From positions 1-30,955 of IMG/VR virus record IMGVR_UViG_3300010354_000361: DNA of 30,955 bases; one strand, given 5' to 3'. Under the pieces are notes generated by a model. That model did not search any database. It saw only the letters and a program-made list of their open reading frames with translations, and was not told the DNA's origin. A program made the position numbers and the translations under genes. How positions within the stretch are numbered: position 1 is the first letter of the stretch; every line of letters begins with the position of its first letter. Below are positions 18,188 to 28,846 of this stretch, piece after piece. The DNA comes from a virus.

Positions 18188-21100
18188 TTAGATATTAGGA
18201 GTGAGAATATTCTTTTTAACTACTTTAAAGTTGTAGGTAGCTGATTGGGATGGTGTTACTGTCAATGTATATTTTCCTAGTCCTGGATTGTATACATTAT
18301 CAAATGTAAATTGTTCAACAAAACTAGAAACACCTACAAATCCATATCCCACTAAATTGTTATAATCTTGGAAATGAACTGAATTTAATTGGAATAATGC
18401 TCTTTGAGTAGTTACTCCTACTGTTTTTTCAACTTGAATAATATATTTTGATGCTGCATAGATATCTGGAACTGTTGTCAATCCAATAGGACTTCCGCCA
18501 GTGTAATTATAGTTTTCACTAGTTAATACACTTAAATTATTAGAAACAACATATGGAGACCTAGCATTTTTGTTTATTATTTGTAGGTTTGTAAATACTG
18601 TTACTCCTATTCCTAAAACTGGAGTATATGTAAATTGAACTGCTCCAGATGAGGTAGTAACCCCAATTGTTCCTAATTGCTTAGTTTGTGAGTCTGCATA
18701 ATAATTAATATCAATTATATTGTTTATATTTTTGACAAAACTAAACTCAAATGCAGTTTCTATTCTATTTTGAGCAGAAGAAATTCCAACAACTCCAGTT
18801 CCAGATTGCAAATCTGAAAGAGGATAACTATAAAGAGTATATGTTGTAATTCCAGCAGTTGCTGCATAACCAACTGTTTGTTCTATAACATCAACATATC
18901 CATAAGAAGTGCTTGTAAGACCAGGAGCACTATTTACAGTATCTCTGACAGCAGTTACTTTATAGCTATTGAATATATTTCTAGGCACAAAGTTTAAAGA
19001 TATTTCATTTATATCTGTATCACTAACTTTTGCTTTCATTTCTCCTAAAGGAGGTTGTGGAGATCCAGCAGCATTGTAAAAATCATAGTAATACCCATAA
19101 GAAGTAAGATTGATAACATCTCCTGTTCTTGTTAAAAGCATATCAAAAACTTGAGGTTTTTCAAATGCTCCAAAGAAAGATACTGTTCCAGCAATAAAGA
19201 AATAGTATTTTAATACTATATTATTGGTTGTGTCCACAGTATCAATTGGAACCTCAACAAATGGAGAAGTATCAGTATCAAATAAAGAAGCAACATCATC
19301 TACAGAAAGAACTCTATTTTTTTCAGACAGTAAAAAGTCAGACAGTTTTTTAGTTCCAAATTTTAGATACTCTGAGTATATGCCATCACTTTCATCAATA
19401 TCTTCTTCTACGACCAAATCAAAGTTTGATACAGTGTTTATATCTTGTTCAGACACAAGAGTAATATTAAGGGCAGAAGCTGAATCTGATGTTACTGTTA
19501 AAGTTTTAGCTATTCCAACTGGCAAATCTGATTCAATTGACAAATCTCCAAATCCCTTATACCCAGATACATGTGAAATATCTGATACTATGGATTTCCA
19601 ATCAGAAAGAGATTTTTTGCTCTTTAAACTATAAGAAAAGTTTTGATAATAGTCATTATCTGGAAGTTTTTGTAAAATAGTAGATAAATTTCCTCTGGAT
19701 AATTTCCATCCTATTTGTTCAGAAACACTAGAATCTAATGTTAAAGAAGCACTGAACTTTTCAACACTAAAAACTTCAGATGTTGCGTATGTAGATTTGC
19801 CACGTATAATATCTCCAGATTTTATGGATGAAGAATTATGAACTTTAACTACATCTGAAATAGGTTCATTTATTTCATTGTTTAAAATTTCAACATCATA
19901 TGGAGACAAAAGTTCATTATTTGCATATTTTGTTTTAACTAAAATTGGATTAAATTTTGCTAGTTCATTATATTTTACAACTCCAGCATTAAATGTACTA
20001 GAACTAAAAGTTCCTGGGAATTTTGGAAGTTCATATCTGATAATAGCAGCATCAGGAGAACTAAAGTTTGGATTTACATATGTGACTACAAATGGATCAT
20101 AGTCATAATCTGAACTGTTAAATCCAGATCCACCAGTACTAGATATATTTTCAACATAAATTAAATCACCAACTGATATTGGTAGTGGATTTGCTGTAGA
20201 AAATCCTGAAATAGGTGTTTCTAGCCTCAATTCAATTTCATAAGGAGCAGATCCTGAAGAAGTAGCATCTAAAATTCTGATTCCATTTGAATTTCCAATT
20301 GGAGCAATAAAGTCATCAGTAGATTTTAAATTTGTTGATGGATTGGTAATTACAACTCTTCCTACAATATTAGTATCGGAAACAATAGATGCTTTAAAAG
20401 TAGGATCTATTTGATTTGTAACTTTGTTATATAACAGAATAGAGGGAGGAAGTTGATATTTTTTACCACGATCTAGTATTTCAACACTGCCTACTTGATA
20501 ACTATTTTTTGTTCTTAATGCAACAAAAGCATTAGATACTGGTGATAAAGTTTTATCACTGGGATATACACTTTCAGTATTTAAAATCTTTAATGATTGA
20601 ATTCTTCCAATAGTTGATGTAATTGGATAAAGATCTGCTCCTTTTCCAGATTGAGTAGTTATTGATTTTACTGAGGGAATTTTTTCATAAGATGACCCCC
20701 CATAAATTAATTTTACAGAATCAATAGGACCTTTAATTCCAGAATCTAAAATTGAATAATTTAAATCAGACAATGCACTAGTATATTGTGATCTTTCTGG
20801 AAATACTGGCAAATTATAAGAGAATGATGTTGTTCCTGCACTTATTATAGAACTTTCTATACTATACAAACTTGTTTCAACTTTTATTTCATTATTTCCA
20901 TCTACAGAAACATCTGGATAAATGGCATCATTGGTTGTTAGATTTTTTAAATTATAGTACAATAGTGGTGGAGTATATTCTGAAACTTTAAGAGTTAAAG
21001 TTGTTGGTGTTTTGAAAACTTCTACTCCATTTTCATCATTTCCAAAATATGGATTTCTAAAAAACTCATCTGAATATATGTTAAAATCTTTTCCTGCAAT

Positions 21101-24100
21101 TGTGGGACTAGTTAAATCAAATACAACAGTTTCATTAGCATATACTCTGACTTTTGGATTTATTTGATTGTCTATTAAAACCCTTGTTGAAGTTGAGAAT
21201 CCAACTGAATATGTTGTAGTTACCCCTGAGATAACATTTACTCTTATATTGTTTCCAACTGACAATCCATGAGAAGATGCAGTTGATACATTAACATTTA
21301 CTTGGGTGACTGATCCAGTAACTACATCAGATCTTTGAGTTTGGAATTTATGTAAATCTCCAGTTCCTGCAGATGTATACTTTAATAGATAATCCCTATT
21401 TTTTACATTTCTTTTATCTTCTACAAGTCCTATTACATCTCTGTTTATTTTTACAACATATAATTCTGGCAAACTATCCAAATCTCCAGCATCCGTAACA
21501 ATTGTAGAGGAGTCTGTTGTATAGACAACTCTTTCACCATCTCTAAAATTATTAAATGGTAGATAAATTCCTCCATTTTCAACAAATTTTGTTTGAGAAA
21601 CACCAATTCCATATGGATAAATTGTCAGATTATTTCCTGCTCCAGCTGCTGTGCTTACTCCTACTGAAACTGATCTAGCAGATTTAAAGTAATAAGACTC
21701 ATTTAAATTAACTGCTGGATTTTTAAAGTTTATTGGAGATCTAAAAGTAAATCTTGAGGAGTTTTCAGTTACTGTTGATCCAATTGAATATCCTGGGGAT
21801 CCACTTTGCCTTAGCACATTTAATCTTCCATTTATTCTATCTAATCCTATTATTTTTAAAACTTCAGATTCTATCTTAAGTTCTTCATCAACTCTATAGT
21901 TAATAATAGAATCTTTAACTCTAATGCTAGTAACTAATCCTGTGATGTGGTATGGATTAACAGATTCTATTAAATTAGTAGATCTTTTTTCAACATTAAT
22001 TTTTACAAACCCTTCAATTCCAGAAAAATCTGTAGTTGAAATTCCACTTATATTGACATAAGTTTGAGATGCAAAGTTATGAGCAGTTGTTGCTACTCCT
22101 ACAAAACCATCTGCATTAGAGACAAATGTTACATTTGTAAATGTTGTAATTCCAGAACTAAGTACATTTACTCCAACACCAGCAACAGATTCAACCTCCC
22201 CAAATGCTCCTATTCCTCCTCCAGATTCATCCTCAAATTCAATATTATCTCCCTTTTCATATCCTAGTCCACCATCAATTACTTTTATAGAAGTAATTTT
22301 TCCTGGTTTTATTGAAGAAACAATTGCATCGGGCTTAATTGTATTAGTGTTTAATTCAAAAAATTCATAATAATTTTGTTTGTCTTCTACTCTGTATGGT
22401 TTGGTATATTTAATTATCCCTAATTCATTAAAGTTTAGGTTTTGATTAAAATCTAAATCAAAATTATCATTATTTGGAATATAATTATAAGAATTTCCAA
22501 TTACATATGGAAAGACTGGAACATTATTAGCATCAATAGTGCAATAATAAGCATAAACTCCTTTTGGATATTCTGGAGTTACTGCAAATCTTCCATTATT
22601 TTCGTCTAAGTCACCAGCATTGGTAAATTGATAATCTTCTATACATTCCAGTAATGCTGGAGGACTAATTTTATTTCTAATATAACCACTCCTCATTCTG
22701 GTTATAATTCCAGTGCCATCAGCATTTGCATAAGCATATGGACCATATATTGGACATCCATCATAAGCCCATCCAATTATGGGAGAGTGTTTGTTTGGAT
22801 TAATACCAAAGGAATTTATTAAATTTTGGTCTAAGAAAAATGTTCCAAAGGTGTTTCCAAACTTAGAATATCTAGAACCAAATAAACATCCATTACTTAG
22901 ATTAGATAATCCTAATTTTGAAACTTCATTCAATGTCCAAGTAGTTAAATTAGATTGAACTTTTAATCCAGAACCAGTATTTTGAATTCTTACTGTAGTG
23001 TCACTTGTTGCATATCCAACCCCACCATTTATAACCTTTACATCTATAATTTGACCATAACTAACTTGATTATTATAAATTTCTCCATTACTAATTTGAG
23101 CAACTAATTGTGCTCCATATCCTTGACCTTCTACAATGAATTCAAAATCATTAAAGTAATTCTGTCCAGCATTTTTGACTGCTACTTCAATTATTTTTCC
23201 AGTTTTGTCTACTATTGGTTCAAATTCTGCATCAGAACCTTCCAAAACAATTAGAGTTGGTCTTTTTTGTAAATTAACTACATTTTTGGATCCTAGAAGT
23301 TGTAAAGCTGGTTTTGACAGTCCTCTTTGAACTTTTGCTCCAGTTACTGTTCCTTGAATTACTGGAACTATTGTAGCTCCATAACCAGTAACAGCAGATT
23401 TTGTAGTCCTTATTCTACCATTAACTTTAACCCTAATGGCTGGGTATTGAACAAAATAAGTAGTTAAAGGATCTGTGTTTAAGATATTTAAAATATTTTT
23501 TTTCTCTACATCTTGATATAATGTAAATGAATTATTATCTATTTTATTAACATAATAAATTTTTTCAGGAACAGCTCCATCTAAATAAGTTCCTTCTGCT
23601 GTAATTTCAACTTCTTGTCCATCATCAAACCCATGATTGTCAAAATAAAAAATGTTATCAAATATATTGATGTGTTCTGGACCAAAAGAAAGTTTTTTGT
23701 ATTCAAATCCACTTTGAATTCCAATGAAACTTACTTCATCTATAACTTGAACTTTTTGTAAAGATTTAAATACTTGAATGCCTCCACCAGCAGTTCTAAT
23801 ATTAATTAAATTAGTTCCTCTTAATGCATCATCTCTAGTTGGTGCTAATCTAAAAGAAGTTGCTGCACCAACTTGGGATATGTAATATATCCCTTGATCT
23901 AACAAAGTTCCTTCTTCAACAGCGCTTCCAATTCCAATTGGAGATGTTCCATGAGTTTCATAAGATACAGCTTCTCCATCAATAAATGGATGAATTGAAT
24001 CAAACCTAAAGTCATTAGTTACTGTTCTTACTACAGTGGCAGAAGTAGTGGCATTAAATCGTATGAGTTTATCAATAAATTTCATTTTAACCACTGTTGG

Positions 24101-26557
24101 AACATCTTTTCTATTTCCACCAGTAATTGTAACTACAGGTTCATCTTCATAGTCATAACCTGAATTCATAATTCTCAAACCTTTTAATTCACCTTTCATT
24201 TCTGGAATGATAAAAGTTTGAGTATCTTGATCTGTTGCAGTATAGAATATATCAAATTGAGGGGGATTAATTAAACTATATCCTTCTCCTCCACTCAAAA
24301 CATCTACAGTATCAATTTGTCCATAATAAATTTTATCAAAAGATTTGTAATTTTGTATTTCTACTCCATTTGCAAAAATACCAACTGGTCCTGGTTGAGT
24401 TTCTACTTTATCTTTTTGAAATTTTGGAATTTTGGGAATTTTTTTAAATGTTTTGGTTGTAGAAAATTCATTCCCATATAAAGAAGAACTAGTTAAAACA
24501 ATATTTTCTAATTTACCAGAAATAGTATTGTTTACATCTAATTCTATAAGACTAGTAGATGTTACTCCTATGGTATCTCTGGTCTCTGACAATCTAATTA
24601 GAGATGGACCAATTCTTCTAACATAATAAGTATCTCCAGTATTAAATCCAACTCTATTTGTCCAATTTCCAGATACAGCATATCCAACTACTTTTACTGC
24701 CTCACCTTCATAAAAGTTGTGAAGTCCAATCAAAGTATTATCATTCAATTCAGAAGCAGAAAATTCAAATTCTTTGATATAAGGACTAACTTCATAATCT
24801 GGAAGTCCATTTGATGTTAAGTAGTTAAAGGATGAATCTGCATAAGAATCTTGAATATTTGATGTGTACTTATTATTAATTTGGTTGAATAATTTAGTAA
24901 AAGGAACTGCTTTTGTTTTTTTAAGTTTTCTCCTAAAAAGTATTTCTTTCCCTAGAATACTAGGATCATTTATTTGTTGAATACTAAACTCTTTAGAAAG
25001 AGTTGTTGTTACTTGTAAATTTGAAAGATATAGTTCATACTCTCCGAAATTTTTTACATATAAGTCTACAATATCACCATTAGATAAATTATGATCATAA
25101 TTTGTTATGCATAATCCATTTGATAATGCAAATGCTTCTTTAGATGCAAGTCTAATTCCTGAAGTTATAGTTTCAACTGCTTTTCCTCCATAGATTGTAA
25201 TTGGAAGATTAAATTTTAAAGATTTTATAAAAGTGTTATTGTCAGTATATCCAATATTATCTATTTTTATAGGATCTCCCTCTGAAGCATACAGACTATT
25301 TTCTGCTTTAATTGTAGATAAAACATTGTTAACTCTTAATTTTACTACTTTAGTTACATCTCCATCTTCATAAGAATAAACCAAATTAGTTGCATAAATT
25401 ACAGATTTTCTTAGTATTTCTTGATCTATTAAAGATGATGTAGAATTCTTAGTTGATACACCTAAAAACTGATTATTTGTTTTATCCTGATAACTATATT
25501 CTACCTCATTGATACTAAGAACTCCACTTTGAGGAAATCCTACAGTACTATCAACAAAAATAGAATTTGATCCAGGTATAACAGTTTCTACACAATAAGT
25601 TTTAAATGTTGGTAAAAATTTTCCAGATATTGATCCTTTGGGGTTTAAATTATTAGAGTACCCAGAAAATAGTCTTATTTTATAATAAATTTTTCCTTTG
25701 AGTAAAAATGAATCAACTGCGTAGATTGATCCGTTTGCTGGTTGAACAATAGAATTGTAAGGATCTAAATCTTGATATAATGTTTGTCCTTCTAATTTAA
25801 ATGGATCTCCACTAATTAAATCACAAATAAAAGTTTCAGTTACAATCCATTTGTCATCAGAGGGTGTAAAACAAAATTCTCTAGGTTTAACTACTGTTAC
25901 TTTTTCATTATACAAAACTTTGAATAAAATTTTATATGCTTCATCTGTACCTTTTGACTGATAAAATGCTTTAGCTTTGGATAAGAAATTTTGTGGATTT
26001 ATATTTTCATCAAAATCAACATTTTCAAAGTGTGGAAGATATAAAGACTTTTGTTTTTTAAAAAATTCAATTAAAAATAAATTACTTAAATTTGATACAA
26101 CATCTCCATCAGAGTGACTGTCTGATTCTGTTGTAGAGAATACAAGTAGTTCTGGATTATCTTGATTAGATAAAGATTCTATCCCACTAAATCCTCTTAT
26201 ACATCCAGTAAATGAGTTTGTAGTAATCCCAGTATATGTAATAATTTCATTATTAATCTTTAAAAGGCCATATCTTTCTGGCCAACCTTTTGTAGATTCA
26301 ACACCAATGACATCATCAAAAAAATCTATGTCTTGAGTTAATGTAGTAGAGGAAATTAAATTAGTGCTATTAAAGGAAGAAAAGTTTTTGTAAATAGATA
26401 AATTTTCAGCAAGATCTACAGATCCTCCTTGAAATTCTTGTGATTGATAGTAAGATTTTAAAAATTCTGCAAAATTTGGATTATCCTCTAAAATAAATTC
26501 TGGGATTTGATTCTCAACTACATCACTAATTTTTACTAACTTTTGATTTTCTATCAT
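18188..26557 (-). CDS. Giant putative baseplate wedge protein with YHYH-like domain
   Basis: This 2789-residue protein directly follows gp6, the T4 gene 7 position (T4 gp7 is 1032 residues). The N-terminus VENQIPEFILEDNPNFAEFLKSYYQ is a helical segment I associate with marine T4-like wedge/tail proteins. Modules in order: INNEIITYTGITTNSFTGCIRG (about 92-130); a second VDSTVGFPQSGVLSINEVEY (about 332-355); several GGxGY units (SGGEGYSLINPP, NGGVGYATSDT, DGGLGYEKGDN); a YHYH-like domain at about 1236-1350 (HSPIIGWAYDGCPIYGPYAY, then DLDENNGRFAVTPEYPKG); DNDYYQNFSYSLKSKKSL with ISHVSGYKGFGDL (about 2297-2336); and a C-terminal beta domain. The gp6 stop is one base before the start. A gp7-like wedge role is inference from synteny. 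Its host-contact potential comes from size and modularity. Confidence 0.85.
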   Translation of the reverse strand: MIENQKLVKISDVVENQIPEFILEDNPNFAEFLKSYYQSQEFQGGSVDLAENLSIYKNFSSFNSTNLISSTTLTQDIDFFDDVIGVESTKGWPERYGLLKINNEIITYTGITTNSFTGCIRGFSGIESLSNQDNPELLVFSTTESDSHSDGDVVSNLSNLFLIEFFKKQKSLYLPHFENVDFDENINPQNFLSKAKAFYQSKGTDEAYKILFKVLYNEKVTVVKPREFCFTPSDDKWIVTETFICDLISGDPFKLEGQTLYQDLDPYNSIVQPANGSIYAVDSFLLKGKIYYKIRLFSGYSNNLNPKGSISGKFLPTFKTYCVETVIPGSNSIFVDSTVGFPQSGVLSINEVEYSYQDKTNNQFLGVSTKNSTSSLIDQEILRKSVIYATNLVYSYEDGDVTKVVKLRVNNVLSTIKAENSLYASEGDPIKIDNIGYTDNNTFIKSLKFNLPITIYGGKAVETITSGIRLASKEAFALSNGLCITNYDHNLSNGDIVDLYVKNFGEYELYLSNLQVTTTLSKEFSIQQINDPSILGKEILFRRKLKKTKAVPFTKLFNQINNKYTSNIQDSYADSSFNYLTSNGLPDYEVSPYIKEFEFSASELNDNTLIGLHNFYEGEAVKVVGYAVSGNWTNRVGFNTGDTYYVRRIGPSLIRLSETRDTIGVTSTSLIELDVNNTISGKLENIVLTSSSLYGNEFSTTKTFKKIPKIPKFQKDKVETQPGPVGIFANGVEIQNYKSFDKIYYGQIDTVDVLSGGEGYSLINPPQFDIFYTATDQDTQTFIIPEMKGELKGLRIMNSGYDYEDEPVVTITGGNRKDVPTVVKMKFIDKLIRFNATTSATVVRTVTNDFRFDSIHPFIDGEAVSYETHGTSPIGIGSAVEEGTLLDQGIYYISQVGAATSFRLAPTRDDALRGTNLINIRTAGGGIQVFKSLQKVQVIDEVSFIGIQSGFEYKKLSFGPEHINIFDNIFYFDNHGFDDGQEVEITAEGTYLDGAVPEKIYYVNKIDNNSFTLYQDVEKKNILNILNTDPLTTYFVQYPAIRVKVNGRIRTTKSAVTGYGATIVPVIQGTVTGAKVQRGLSKPALQLLGSKNVVNLQKRPTLIVLEGSDAEFEPIVDKTGKIIEVAVKNAGQNYFNDFEFIVEGQGYGAQLVAQISNGEIYNNQVSYGQIIDVKVINGGVGYATSDTTVRIQNTGSGLKVQSNLTTWTLNEVSKLGLSNLSNGCLFGSRYSKFGNTFGTFFLDQNLINSFGINPNKHSPIIGWAYDGCPIYGPYAYANADGTGIITRMRSGYIRNKISPPALLECIEDYQFTNAGDLDENNGRFAVTPEYPKGVYAYYCTIDANNVPVFPYVIGNSYNYIPNNDNFDLDFNQNLNFNELGIIKYTKPYRVEDKQNYYEFFELNTNTIKPDAIVSSIKPGKITSIKVIDGGLGYEKGDNIEFEDESGGGIGAFGEVESVAGVGVNVLSSGITTFTNVTFVSNADGFVGVATTAHNFASQTYVNISGISTTDFSGIEGFVKINVEKRSTNLIESVNPYHITGLVTSIRVKDSIINYRVDEELKIESEVLKIIGLDRINGRLNVLRQSGSPGYSIGSTVTENSSRFTFRSPINFKNPAVNLNESYYFKSARSVSVGVSTAAGAGNNLTIYPYGIGVSQTKFVENGGIYLPFNNFRDGERVVYTTDSSTIVTDAGDLDSLPELYVVKINRDVIGLVEDKRNVKNRDYLLKYTSAGTGDLHKFQTQRSDVVTGSVTQVNVNVSTASSHGLSVGNNIRVNVISGVTTTYSVGFSTSTRVLIDNQINPKVRVYANETVVFDLTSPTIAGKDFNIYSDEFFRNPYFGNDENGVEVFKTPTTLTLKVSEYTPPLLYYNLKNLTTNDAIYPDVSVDGNNEIKVETSLYSIESSIISAGTTSFSYNLPVFPERSQYTSALSDLNYSILDSGIKGPIDSVKLIYGGSSYEKIPSVKSITTQSGKGADLYPITSTIGRIQSLKILNTESVYPSDKTLSPVSNAFVALRTKNSYQVGSVEILDRGKKYQLPPSILLYNKVTNQIDPTFKASIVSDTNIVGRVVITNPSTNLKSTDDFIAPIGNSNGIRILDATSSGSAPYEIELRLETPISGFSTANPLPISVGDLIYVENISSTGGSGFNSSDYDYDPFVVTYVNPNFSSPDAAIIRYELPKFPGTFSSSTFNAGVVKYNELAKFNPILVKTKYANNELLSPYDVEILNNEINEPISDVVKVHNSSSIKSGDIIRGKSTYATSEVFSVEKFSASLTLDSSVSEQIGWKLSRGNLSTILQKLPDNDYYQNFSYSLKSKKSLSDWKSIVSDISHVSGYKGFGDLSIESDLPVGIAKTLTVTSDSASALNITLVSEQDINTVSNFDLVVEEDIDESDGIYSEYLKFGTKKLSDFLLSEKNRVLSVDDVASLFDTDTSPFVEVPIDTVDTTNNIVLKYYFFIAGTVSFFGAFEKPQVFDMLLTRTGDVINLTSYGYYYDFYNAAGSPQPPLGEMKAKVSDTDINEISLNFVPRNIFNSYKVTAVRDTVNSAPGLTSTSYGYVDVIEQTVGYAATAGITTYTLYSYPLSDLQSGTGVVGISSAQNRIETAFEFSFVKNINNIIDINYYADSQTKQLGTIGVTTSSGAVQFTYTPVLGIGVTVFTNLQIINKNARSPYVVSNNLSVLTSENYNYTGGSPIGLTTVPDIYAASKYIIQVEKTVGVTTQRALFQLNSVHFQDYNNLVGYGFVGVSSFVEQFTFDNVYNPGLGKYTLTVTPSQSATYNFKVVKKNILTPNI
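22507..22849 (-). other. YHYH-like domain within the giant wedge protein
   Basis: Residues about 1237-1350 resemble the YHYH family. Visible landmarks are His1257 in HSPIIGWAYDGCPIYGPYAY, then RSGYIRN, GDLDENNGRFAVTPEYPKG and a terminal VFPYVIG. In the family the segment after the PEYP-like motif usually carries His residues (YHYH); here it reads VYAYYCT around residue 1335, so the name-giving histidines are missing. The recognition comes from memory of the family pattern, not from a search. Confidence 0.6.
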
Positions 26558-26558
26558 C

Positions 26559-28442
26559 TTAACTTCTTATTTTGGTTCCAGTTGAAAAGCTTGTTTCTGG
26601 TTCAAATCTGCTTCCTGAGGCATTTTCTCCAGAAGAAATTACATCTTTTAATAGATTGAACTTACTTTTACCAATATCTAATTTTAAATAAATTGATTTT
26701 CTGGCAACTACATCATTTGAATAAGGAGTTGCTTCAATTTCAATGATATTATTTGGTAAAGAAGTTCCTGTCACAGTTATATTATCTATATTAATTTCTC
26801 CTGTGATATAATCTACTGTCCCAATATCTTGCATTTCTGTTTGCTCCTTTTCTCCATCAATAGAGAAAATGTATAATTTTCCAGTCTTTAAATCTGTATT
26901 TGGAAAATCTGATAAAAATACTTCCCTTGACATATCTTTAACAAAAAATCCAGTGCTTCTTATATTGTATCCAGATAAAGAAGCAAAAAATCTATTTTCA
27001 TAACAAATTGTATATTGAGTAGGTTCATTTAAGATTACCCCAACGTTTCTTCTAATTTTAACTCTTGTTATATTGGATGTTATAGAAGAATTTGTTGCAT
27101 CTATAATTCTAACTGCTTTACTATATTTAAATCTTCCACCAAATTTGTTCAATTCAGTAGAATTAGAATAAGTTTGTAAAGATGATGTAATTTGTGTTTT
27201 TAAATCATTTACAGCACCTATGAAGTTTGAATTGTAATATACTGCAGAGTCTAATTCAACATAAAGAACATTAACATCCACAAATTTTGGTTCAATTCCA
27301 GCTATAGAATATTTTTTAAGTGAAGTTAATATGAACTCCTTTGTCTGTTCTGACAAATAATCTGAATTTTTTGGTTTTGCTGCTAAAAATACCCTTCCAT
27401 ATTGTGGTGGAGATAACTCTTCTCCACCATATGCAGTAACAGATTCTATATTAGGATAAATTGCTGGCAATAAAGATTCATAATCTGATGCAGTGACCGC
27501 TCTATATTGAGTAGAGTACATTCTTGGAGCATAATATTTAATTGATTCTATAGATTGAATATCATCCCCATTATTAGCTGCTTCAGATGTAATAATAATT
27601 CCAACATTAGGACCTAAATTAGATCCTGTTTCTGATAGGATAGTTCCAGAAAATACAAAATCAGATGCTCCATTTCCCTGTTTTCCATTAGTTGTAATAT
27701 AAGTTGCAGCAACTTGATTATTATTGCTTAGTTTTTTTCCAAAAACTCCATCTCCAAAAAATAATTCATATCTTTCATCTGAAATTTCTTGGACTAAAAA
27801 TATTTTAGAATTAGAGTCTACACTTACAATATTGTCAACTGCAACATATTCATCTGAAGTGGTAGATTCTGAAGTTTGTTTTACACTTACTCTAATTGTG
27901 GAAGTATCAATAAATGGGTTTGGTAAAATGTATTTTTGATTTGGTTGAGAAGTATCTACTATAAATGTTTTTGTTAATAAAGTTCCTTCATAAATTACAA
28001 CATCAATAAAAGATGCTTCTCCTTGACTTACTCCAACAGTAATATCTTCTGGAATTGAAAAAATGTAACTTGTGTTATCTAAGTTACCTGTACAAACAAT
28101 CCCTTTTTTTAAAGTTGCTGTTTTAACTGTTGAGTTTAGATTAGATAGACTAAAAGATATTTTTGCAGTTGCTGCTCTTCTTGACAGTGGTACATACCCA
28201 ACATTCCTTGCAAGAGATACTACATTCTCTCTGAGGGTTGCACTATCAAGGAAAGACTCATTAACCACCATGTTGGTGTTAAATGCAGTCAAATAAGTGT
28301 TGTATGCTAAGACATCAATTAAGATTGAAAAGTTAGATCCCTCAAAATCAAAATCGCTAAAGTTTGAATTTGATCTTAAGTAATCTTTAATAGATGTTCT
28401 AATCTGATCAAAGTCTAGATTAGTAAACTGTGTAAATGCCAT
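26559..28442 (-). CDS. 6: gp6-like baseplate wedge subunit
   Basis: This 627-residue protein is close to T4 gp6 (660). The N-terminus is characteristic: FTNLDFDQIRTSIKDYLRSN, then FEGSNFSILIDVLAYNTYL and NESFLDSATLRENVVSLARN, followed by VGYVPLSRRAATAKI. The middle carries FFGDGVFGKKLSNNNQV and SIESIKYYAPRMYSTQYRAV, then DYESLLPAIYPNIESVTAYGG, the pattern of the wider baseplate J/gp6 family. In T4, gp6 dimers join wedges into the inner baseplate ring and drive the hexagon-to-star change. The start overlaps the gp25 stop by one base (TAATG), so gp25 and gp6 are coupled, matching their partnership in wedge assembly. Confidence 0.95.
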   Translation of the reverse strand: MAFTQFTNLDFDQIRTSIKDYLRSNSNFSDFDFEGSNFSILIDVLAYNTYLTAFNTNMVVNESFLDSATLRENVVSLARNVGYVPLSRRAATAKISFSLSNLNSTVKTATLKKGIVCTGNLDNTSYIFSIPEDITVGVSQGEASFIDVVIYEGTLLTKTFIVDTSQPNQKYILPNPFIDTSTIRVSVKQTSESTTSDEYVAVDNIVSVDSNSKIFLVQEISDERYELFFGDGVFGKKLSNNNQVAATYITTNGKQGNGASDFVFSGTILSETGSNLGPNVGIIITSEAANNGDDIQSIESIKYYAPRMYSTQYRAVTASDYESLLPAIYPNIESVTAYGGEELSPPQYGRVFLAAKPKNSDYLSEQTKEFILTSLKKYSIAGIEPKFVDVNVLYVELDSAVYYNSNFIGAVNDLKTQITSSLQTYSNSTELNKFGGRFKYSKAVRIIDATNSSITSNITRVKIRRNVGVILNEPTQYTICYENRFFASLSGYNIRSTGFFVKDMSREVFLSDFPNTDLKTGKLYIFSIDGEKEQTEMQDIGTVDYITGEINIDNITVTGTSLPNNIIEIEATPYSNDVVARKSIYLKLDIGKSKFNLLKDVISSGENASGSRFEPETSFSTGTKIRS

Positions 28443-28846
28443 TAGTATCTGGTTGGTTGTAATACAAAGGTTATTGCCTGTTGTGGTGCACTTAGACCAA
28501 CAATATCATAAACAATACTGACTTCCATGGCATTATCTTCTGGATAAAGATCTACACCCACATCTCTCAATACTACTCTAGGTTCAAAGTTGTTAATTAC
28601 TATTTTAATTTCTTCTCTAAGTGGTTCTTCAATTCCAATATCAGCAAGTTCAAAGAAATAATTGTCAACTTTAGATCCTAAAAGAGGATTAAAGAATCTT
28701 TCTCCAACTCTAGTTCTCACTAGATTGATGACTGATCTTTTAATGGCATCCTCATTAGTCAATGAAATAATATCATTGGTAACTGGATTCCTCTTAAAAG
28801 ATAGACTGATATCTTTAAATCCTCTTGAGACAGATTCTAAAGGCAC
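28442..28846 (-). CDS. 25: gp25-like baseplate wedge subunit, GTG start
   Basis: This 134-residue protein is essentially T4 gp25 length (132) and matches the GPW/gp25 family. It has an N-terminal FKDISLSFKRNPVTNDIISL, the helix with DAIKRSVINLVRTRVGERFF followed by NPLLGSKV, and a C-terminal beta part (YDIVGLSAPQQAITFVL). In T4, gp25 sits in the inner baseplate and helps start sheath polymerisation. The first codon is GTG, not ATG. It is preferred because the family usually begins MPLE-VSR-FKDIS as I recall it, and no ATG lies nearby in frame. No clear Shine-Dalgarno sequence precedes it. gp6 follows with a one-base overlap. Confidence 0.95.
   Translation of the reverse strand: MPLESVSRGFKDISLSFKRNPVTNDIISLTNEDAIKRSVINLVRTRVGERFFNPLLGSKVDNYFFELADIGIEEPLREEIKIVINNFEPRVVLRDVGVDLYPEDNAMEVSIVYDIVGLSAPQQAITFVLQPTRY

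Follow-up and report, generated by a model that had tools for sequence, protein, structure and literature searches.

The stretch of DNA analysed here, 30,955 nt from a virus (the window), encodes a giant baseplate protein of a marine T4-like phage, and within it lies a YHYH-family domain in which the three invariant histidines of the family are absent. We consider it probable (roughly 0.65) that this domain is a YHYH derivative specific to the baseplate, which no longer has the ancestral metal site and is retained for a structural or binding role. The ORF of 2789 residues (18188..26557; all window features located here lie on the minus strand) occupies the gp7 (baseplate wedge initiator) slot according to the ORF list, synteny and PHROG 2885, and the C-terminal half of the YHYH domain maps to 22520..22819.

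The initial annotation had placed a YHYH-family domain at 22507-22849, corresponding to residues 1237-1350, of a 2789-residue baseplate-position protein and had suggested a comparison with PF14240. This search bore out the placement: PF14240 matched residues 1248-1346 with an E value of 4.6e-23 and 82.6 bits against a gathering cut-off of 25, a six-frame search agreed, and the landmark peptides that had been named are present in the ORF. The match spans about profile positions 85-187 of 193, which is the C-terminal half rather than the full length of the family. GWAxDGxPxY, DLDxxNGR and TPE[FY]P, the elements of the C-terminal core, were found in the window protein, all 46 aligned baseplate relatives matched PF14240, and an hhalign comparison between the baseplate class and the full-length family gave a probability of 99.9 (E 1.4e-37), again in the C-half only. 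By these profile comparisons the C-half of the window domain belongs to the family. Across the 46 baseplate sequences 22 columns are invariant, mostly in the C-half core, and HSPIIGWAYDGCPIYGP, NGR and TP show little or no variation, as do several Gly and Tyr residues. Class comparison identified HSPIIGWAYDGCPIYGPYAY (residues 1257-1276; 22730..22789) as the most conserved core of the window domain, containing the family-invariant Asp (D1266) and a class-specific Cys (C1268), and DLDENNGRF (residues 1316-1324; 22586..22612) as conserved across all classes.

The genes preceding the ORF encode the baseplate wedge proteins gp25 (28442..28846; PF04965, PHROG 261) and gp6 (26559..28442; PF21379, PHROG 219), and the order gp25, gp6, giant ORF is syntenic with P-HM1, P-TIM68 and Sf-CH1b. 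This position, together with likeness to cyanophage baseplate wedge proteins, assigns the ORF to the gp7 slot. PHROG 2885 ('baseplate wedge subunit') matched residues 5-1795 with an E value of about 0; PF23786 (Baseplate_wedge) scored below its cut-off, and an NCBIfam search with the ORF matched nothing. The YHYH domain is flanked by beta-repeats of the 'I..V.V.NGG.GY' type, one upstream (22949..23056), recognized from sequence, alignment and high-pLDDT strands, and one downstream (GKITSIKVIDGGLGY; 22178..22303), recognized from sequence and alignment. Beta-repeats like these also form a long C-terminal extension (GGYRYSSAPSL..., GAGYSYSSSPNV...) of a T4 neck-type protein (P0005; 4424-5803; PF11649 at residues 2-175), and beta-repeat-like sequence occurs in a 1031-aa ORF (P0009; 15077-18172) between the gp7-slot protein and gp8, for which a Pfam search gave no match at E 0.01.

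For comparison we assembled full-length YHYH domains from a Deinococcus plasmid protein, the S-BM3 phage tail protein, 79 bacterial-genome loci and 37 IMG/VR phage loci. In the cellular and free-standing phage proteins, the YHYH motif precedes the HSPIIGWAYDG / GWAxDGxPIY core and is itself preceded by a third invariant His. The initial annotation had instead sought the signature after TPEYP and had read GVYAYYCT at that place as the loss of a His motif. The family normally has G-x-Y-[H/Y/A]-Y there; of 91-92 cellular domains, 42-43% have H and 38-40% have Y as the residue in question, and phage domains in which the YHYH motif is intact have A in 96-100%. As these intact domains read GTYAYF after TPEYP, GVYAYYCT is not a loss, and we rejected this place as the signature site. 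In the window, the stretch concerned is TPEYPKGVYAYYCT (residues 1327-1340; 22538..22579), in which A1336 sits at the variable H/Y/A position and C1339 is class-typical. The statement that the signature histidines are replaced was nonetheless right for another reason, because the window domain lacks the YHYH motif at its true place upstream of HSPIIGW. D107, H112, H120 and H122 are conserved in about 100% of the cellular copies, a figure biased for YHYH by the collection of this set in part with a YHYH pattern, and in 96-100% of the free-standing phage copies; the phage set was collected with N-terminal patterns of which YHYH was no part, and all three His positions are still 96-100% His.

In the baseplate class these residues are gone. 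Ahead of its core, the window domain has neither the YHYH signature, nor the three invariant His, nor Asp107. The same four residues are missing or replaced in the baseplate copies compared, 47 distinct ones of the window type and 73 of the Kyanoviridae type, the one exception being column 122, an uncertainly aligned place at which 6% of the window-type copies have a His. Likewise, in the 120 residues that precede the core, YHYH occurs in none of 49 window-type and 73 Kyanoviridae-type copies. In these alignments the ligand residues are thus absent across the class, and the earlier idea of a lost metal site holds in so far as the window and about 120 baseplate relatives lack the three His and the Asp, with the site itself having been mislocated. 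Kyanoviridae baseplate copies have GEYGYLYNP where the family has GEYHYHGMP, and a cell-derived profile puts YGYL in register with YHYH in 82% of them. Because the upstream segment of the window is homologous to that of Kyanoviridae even with the core removed (hhalign E 1e-7), this two-step profile register places F1237-G-T-F1240 (22838..22849) at the YHYH position. The register is probable rather than proven, since the N-half alone, compared as a profile with the family N-half, was not significant for either baseplate type (E 0.31 and 0.69).

Next, we built a tree of the C-half, mid-point rooted and with a limited cellular sample partly selected by the YHYH pattern. Cellular and phage copies were split with a support of 0.994, the full-length phage copies formed one clade (0.855), and all 61 baseplate copies fell into one clade of moderate support (0.605), sharing a common clade in this tree. 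As the full-length phage copies retain the histidines, the His loss would most simply have occurred on the branch leading to the baseplate class. By tblastn, 464 phage records carry the domain, almost all of them from cyanophages and with baseplate and full-length copies counted together; it is often annotated as 'baseplate wedge initiator', 'structural protein' or 'YHYH domain-containing protein'; one record gives the name 'YHYH domain-containing' to its gp7-slot protein, and dozens of IMG/VR contigs also carry the domain. The capture of a YHYH domain is neither new nor limited to the window phage, is ordinary for its phage group and has been described in two papers (PMC7824862, PMC7029224). 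The initial annotation was correct that the domain sits in a viral tail protein, but the peculiarity that it implied is shared by hundreds of cyanophages and related marine phages, which have the domain in gp7-slot or other structural proteins, and its description of the family as usually secreted or surface proteins omits the free-standing, full-length, His-keeping YHYH proteins of the same phage group.

The comparison set yielded further arrangements. Two YHYH domains occur at neighbouring places in one locus in L079, L089, L100, L126 and L129, and further bacterial-genome loci with two neighbouring domains are L135, L136, L139, L141 and L143. On the Deinococcus plasmid (L063:1380-3456), the YHYH protein gene is directly followed by a HupE/UreJ family gene, a family usually tied to nickel or metal handling. 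Cupredoxin-like sequence was seen in two settings. In the window, a collagen-like tail fibre with a T4 gp9/10-type N terminus (P0004; 2577-4397) has a cupredoxin-like segment at residues of about 96-205, in which a His (GHPFWI) and C-x2-H-x2-M (YYVCQNHSLM) give a pattern like that of type 1 copper sites; its matches were weak (rusticyanin, E 0.057; PF00127, below cut-off). A YHYH-family protein of Actinomycetia phage DSL-LC01 (P0015; L064:1780-3150) carries a very similar cupredoxin-like insert (GHPFWIKT ... YYYICQFHSLMQG) between the core and the DLD motif.

We then turned to structure prediction. AlphaFold2 modelled the full-length phage domain with a mean pLDDT of 80.7 (pTM 0.83) and the window region with a mean pLDDT of 69.4 (pTM 0.41). 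In the latter model the upstream beta-repeats are good and the core is fair to good, and residues 101-170, including the putative YHYH equivalent, are poor, with pLDDT values of 51-65 upstream of residue 1256. The window model matched predicted viral YHYH structures, among them those of S-RIM14 (E 8.8e-9) and P-TIM40 (E 4.8e-7), its N-terminal part being of low confidence. Against the PDB, Foldseek and VIA-align found nothing credible for the YHYH family fold, and sequence searches with the whole ORF and both alignments gave zero matches. The PDB rows returned for the window model concerned only the upstream beta-repeats, were immunoglobulin-like with Z up to 4.4, and were set aside as within background. 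A survey of literature titles on cyanophage baseplate structures gave no direct lead.

A chance similarity or an assembly artefact as the source of the YHYH match deserves practically no credence; it is refuted by the E values, by the intact 2789-aa frame and by the occurrence of the same arrangement on 61 contigs. Possible, if doubtful, is that the window protein holds a true half domain, only the C-half having been captured and the upstream segment being unrelated phage sequence. In its favour, the Pfam match, the hmmsearch of the window and hhalign each reach no further than the C-half, and the N-half alone has no significant similarity to the family; against it stand the YGYL-YHYH register in most Kyanoviridae copies, the best local match of the N-half, which is insignificant but lands at the same place, and the order of strand, helix and core strand in the predicted model, which is that of the full-length model. 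Because the prediction upstream is poor, a half domain joined to a new N-terminal part would look the same here as a complete domain whose metal site has diverged. The half domain differs from our main explanation in the origin of the segment; it is a variant of it and leaves the functional consequence unchanged.

Other readings concern what the domain does. The only published functional proposal that we found for phage YHYH domains (PMC7824862) describes a zinc hydrolase associated with the tail, which would breach the cell wall, reports YHYH fusions to baseplate proteins in jumbo phages and predicts a zinc site of three His plus Asp, whose triad would correspond to H112, H120 and H122; its example, AOO14285.1, may belong to either the baseplate or the full-length class. 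That the window domain is still such a metal-dependent hydrolase is very improbable. Its association with baseplate proteins and the conservation of Asp147 and of the D-x-x-N-G-R-x-x-TPE core would suit the proposal, but the His triad is absent from the window domain and from the whole sampled baseplate class. For this His-less class the evidence contradicts the published suggestion, although some activity could remain, since Asp147, Asp209, Asn212, Arg214 and Glu220 are kept in all classes. Alternatively, a metal or disulphide site might have been rebuilt from the His of HSPIIG, Asp147, Cys/His149 and either Cys216 or Cys230, in which case the domain would still bind a metal or be cross-linked. 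The residue at 149 is Cys in 47/47 window-type copies and His in 96% of the Kyanoviridae-type baseplate copies, whereas cellular domains have F/Y at this place (100%) and free-standing phage ones mostly F. At least one of positions 216, 227 and 230 is Cys in 47/47 window-type and 72/73 Kyanoviridae-type copies (119/120) versus 11/91 cellular ones; the five window-type copies without Cys216 all have Cys230, as does the window itself; and the His preceding S is invariant across all phage classes. However, free-standing phage copies with Phe149 frequently have Cys216 as well, so this Cys is not tied to position 149, and the sequences are related, so that the counts are inflated and not independent. 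For these reasons we rate a rebuilt site as unlikely. We also hold it quite unlikely that, after loss of the ancestral three-His site, a new C-half His/Asp/Cys site serves as a metal-dependent or redox/disulphide baseplate switch, which might use His149 in Kyanoviridae and Cys149 in the lineage of the window.

Together, these comparisons lead us to favour the structural or binding module. We suggest that a YHYH domain entered a T4-like marine phage lineage and came to lie between the beta-repeats of the giant gp7-slot protein. In the baseplate class the YHYH strand would then have lost its histidines, and the N-terminal part would either have diverged too far to be recognized by sequence or have been replaced. 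The C-terminal core of this class (HSPIIGWAYDGCPIYGP ... DLDxxNGR ... TPEYP.GxYxY) is under strong constraint. Metal binding and any enzyme activity have presumably been lost in this class, and the domain, probably exposed on the baseplate, would most likely act as a non-enzymatic structural or surface-binding module at the baseplate rim. The hydrolase proposal rests on histidines that are missing from the baseplate wedge version of many marine phages, and a hydrolase annotation of the His-less copies would mislead. What is useful in the present analysis is that the proposed zinc ligands are missing throughout the class, which limits that proposal; and since one phage group has both free-standing copies with the His and baseplate copies without them, the function of each becomes testable.

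Among known systems, the cellular members of PF14240 share with the window the C-terminal core of GWAxDGxPIY, DLDxxNGR, TPE[FY]P, GxYxY and FPY; compared with them, the window is without a recognizable N-half, D107, H112 and YHYH, and has Cys in place of Phe149. Nearer are the free-standing and tail-protein YHYH domains of cyanophages (S-BM3 'peptidase S8' and IMG/VR loci L147-L183), the nearest tree group outside the baseplate class, which have HS[KP]xxGxAxDG and TPE[FY]PxGTYAYF and share the phage-specific HS and Ala227 with the window but, unlike it, retain the three His and the full N-half. The gp7-slot proteins of Kyanoviridae and relatives (P-HM1 gp7, P-TIM68 and the Sf-CH1b 'YHYH domain-containing protein') have the same gp25-gp6-giant order and, like the window, a His-less YHYH domain after beta-repeats; most of these copies have His149 and YGYL, whereas the lineage of the window has Cys149 and FGTF, and the window protein, at 2789 aa, is the shorter. 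Last, YHYH domains have been described in the structural operon of pelagimyophages (PMC7029224), whose VrlC-type substitute for T4 gp7 can, by description, be set beside the window protein as a further case in which gp7 is replaced in marine T4-like phages.
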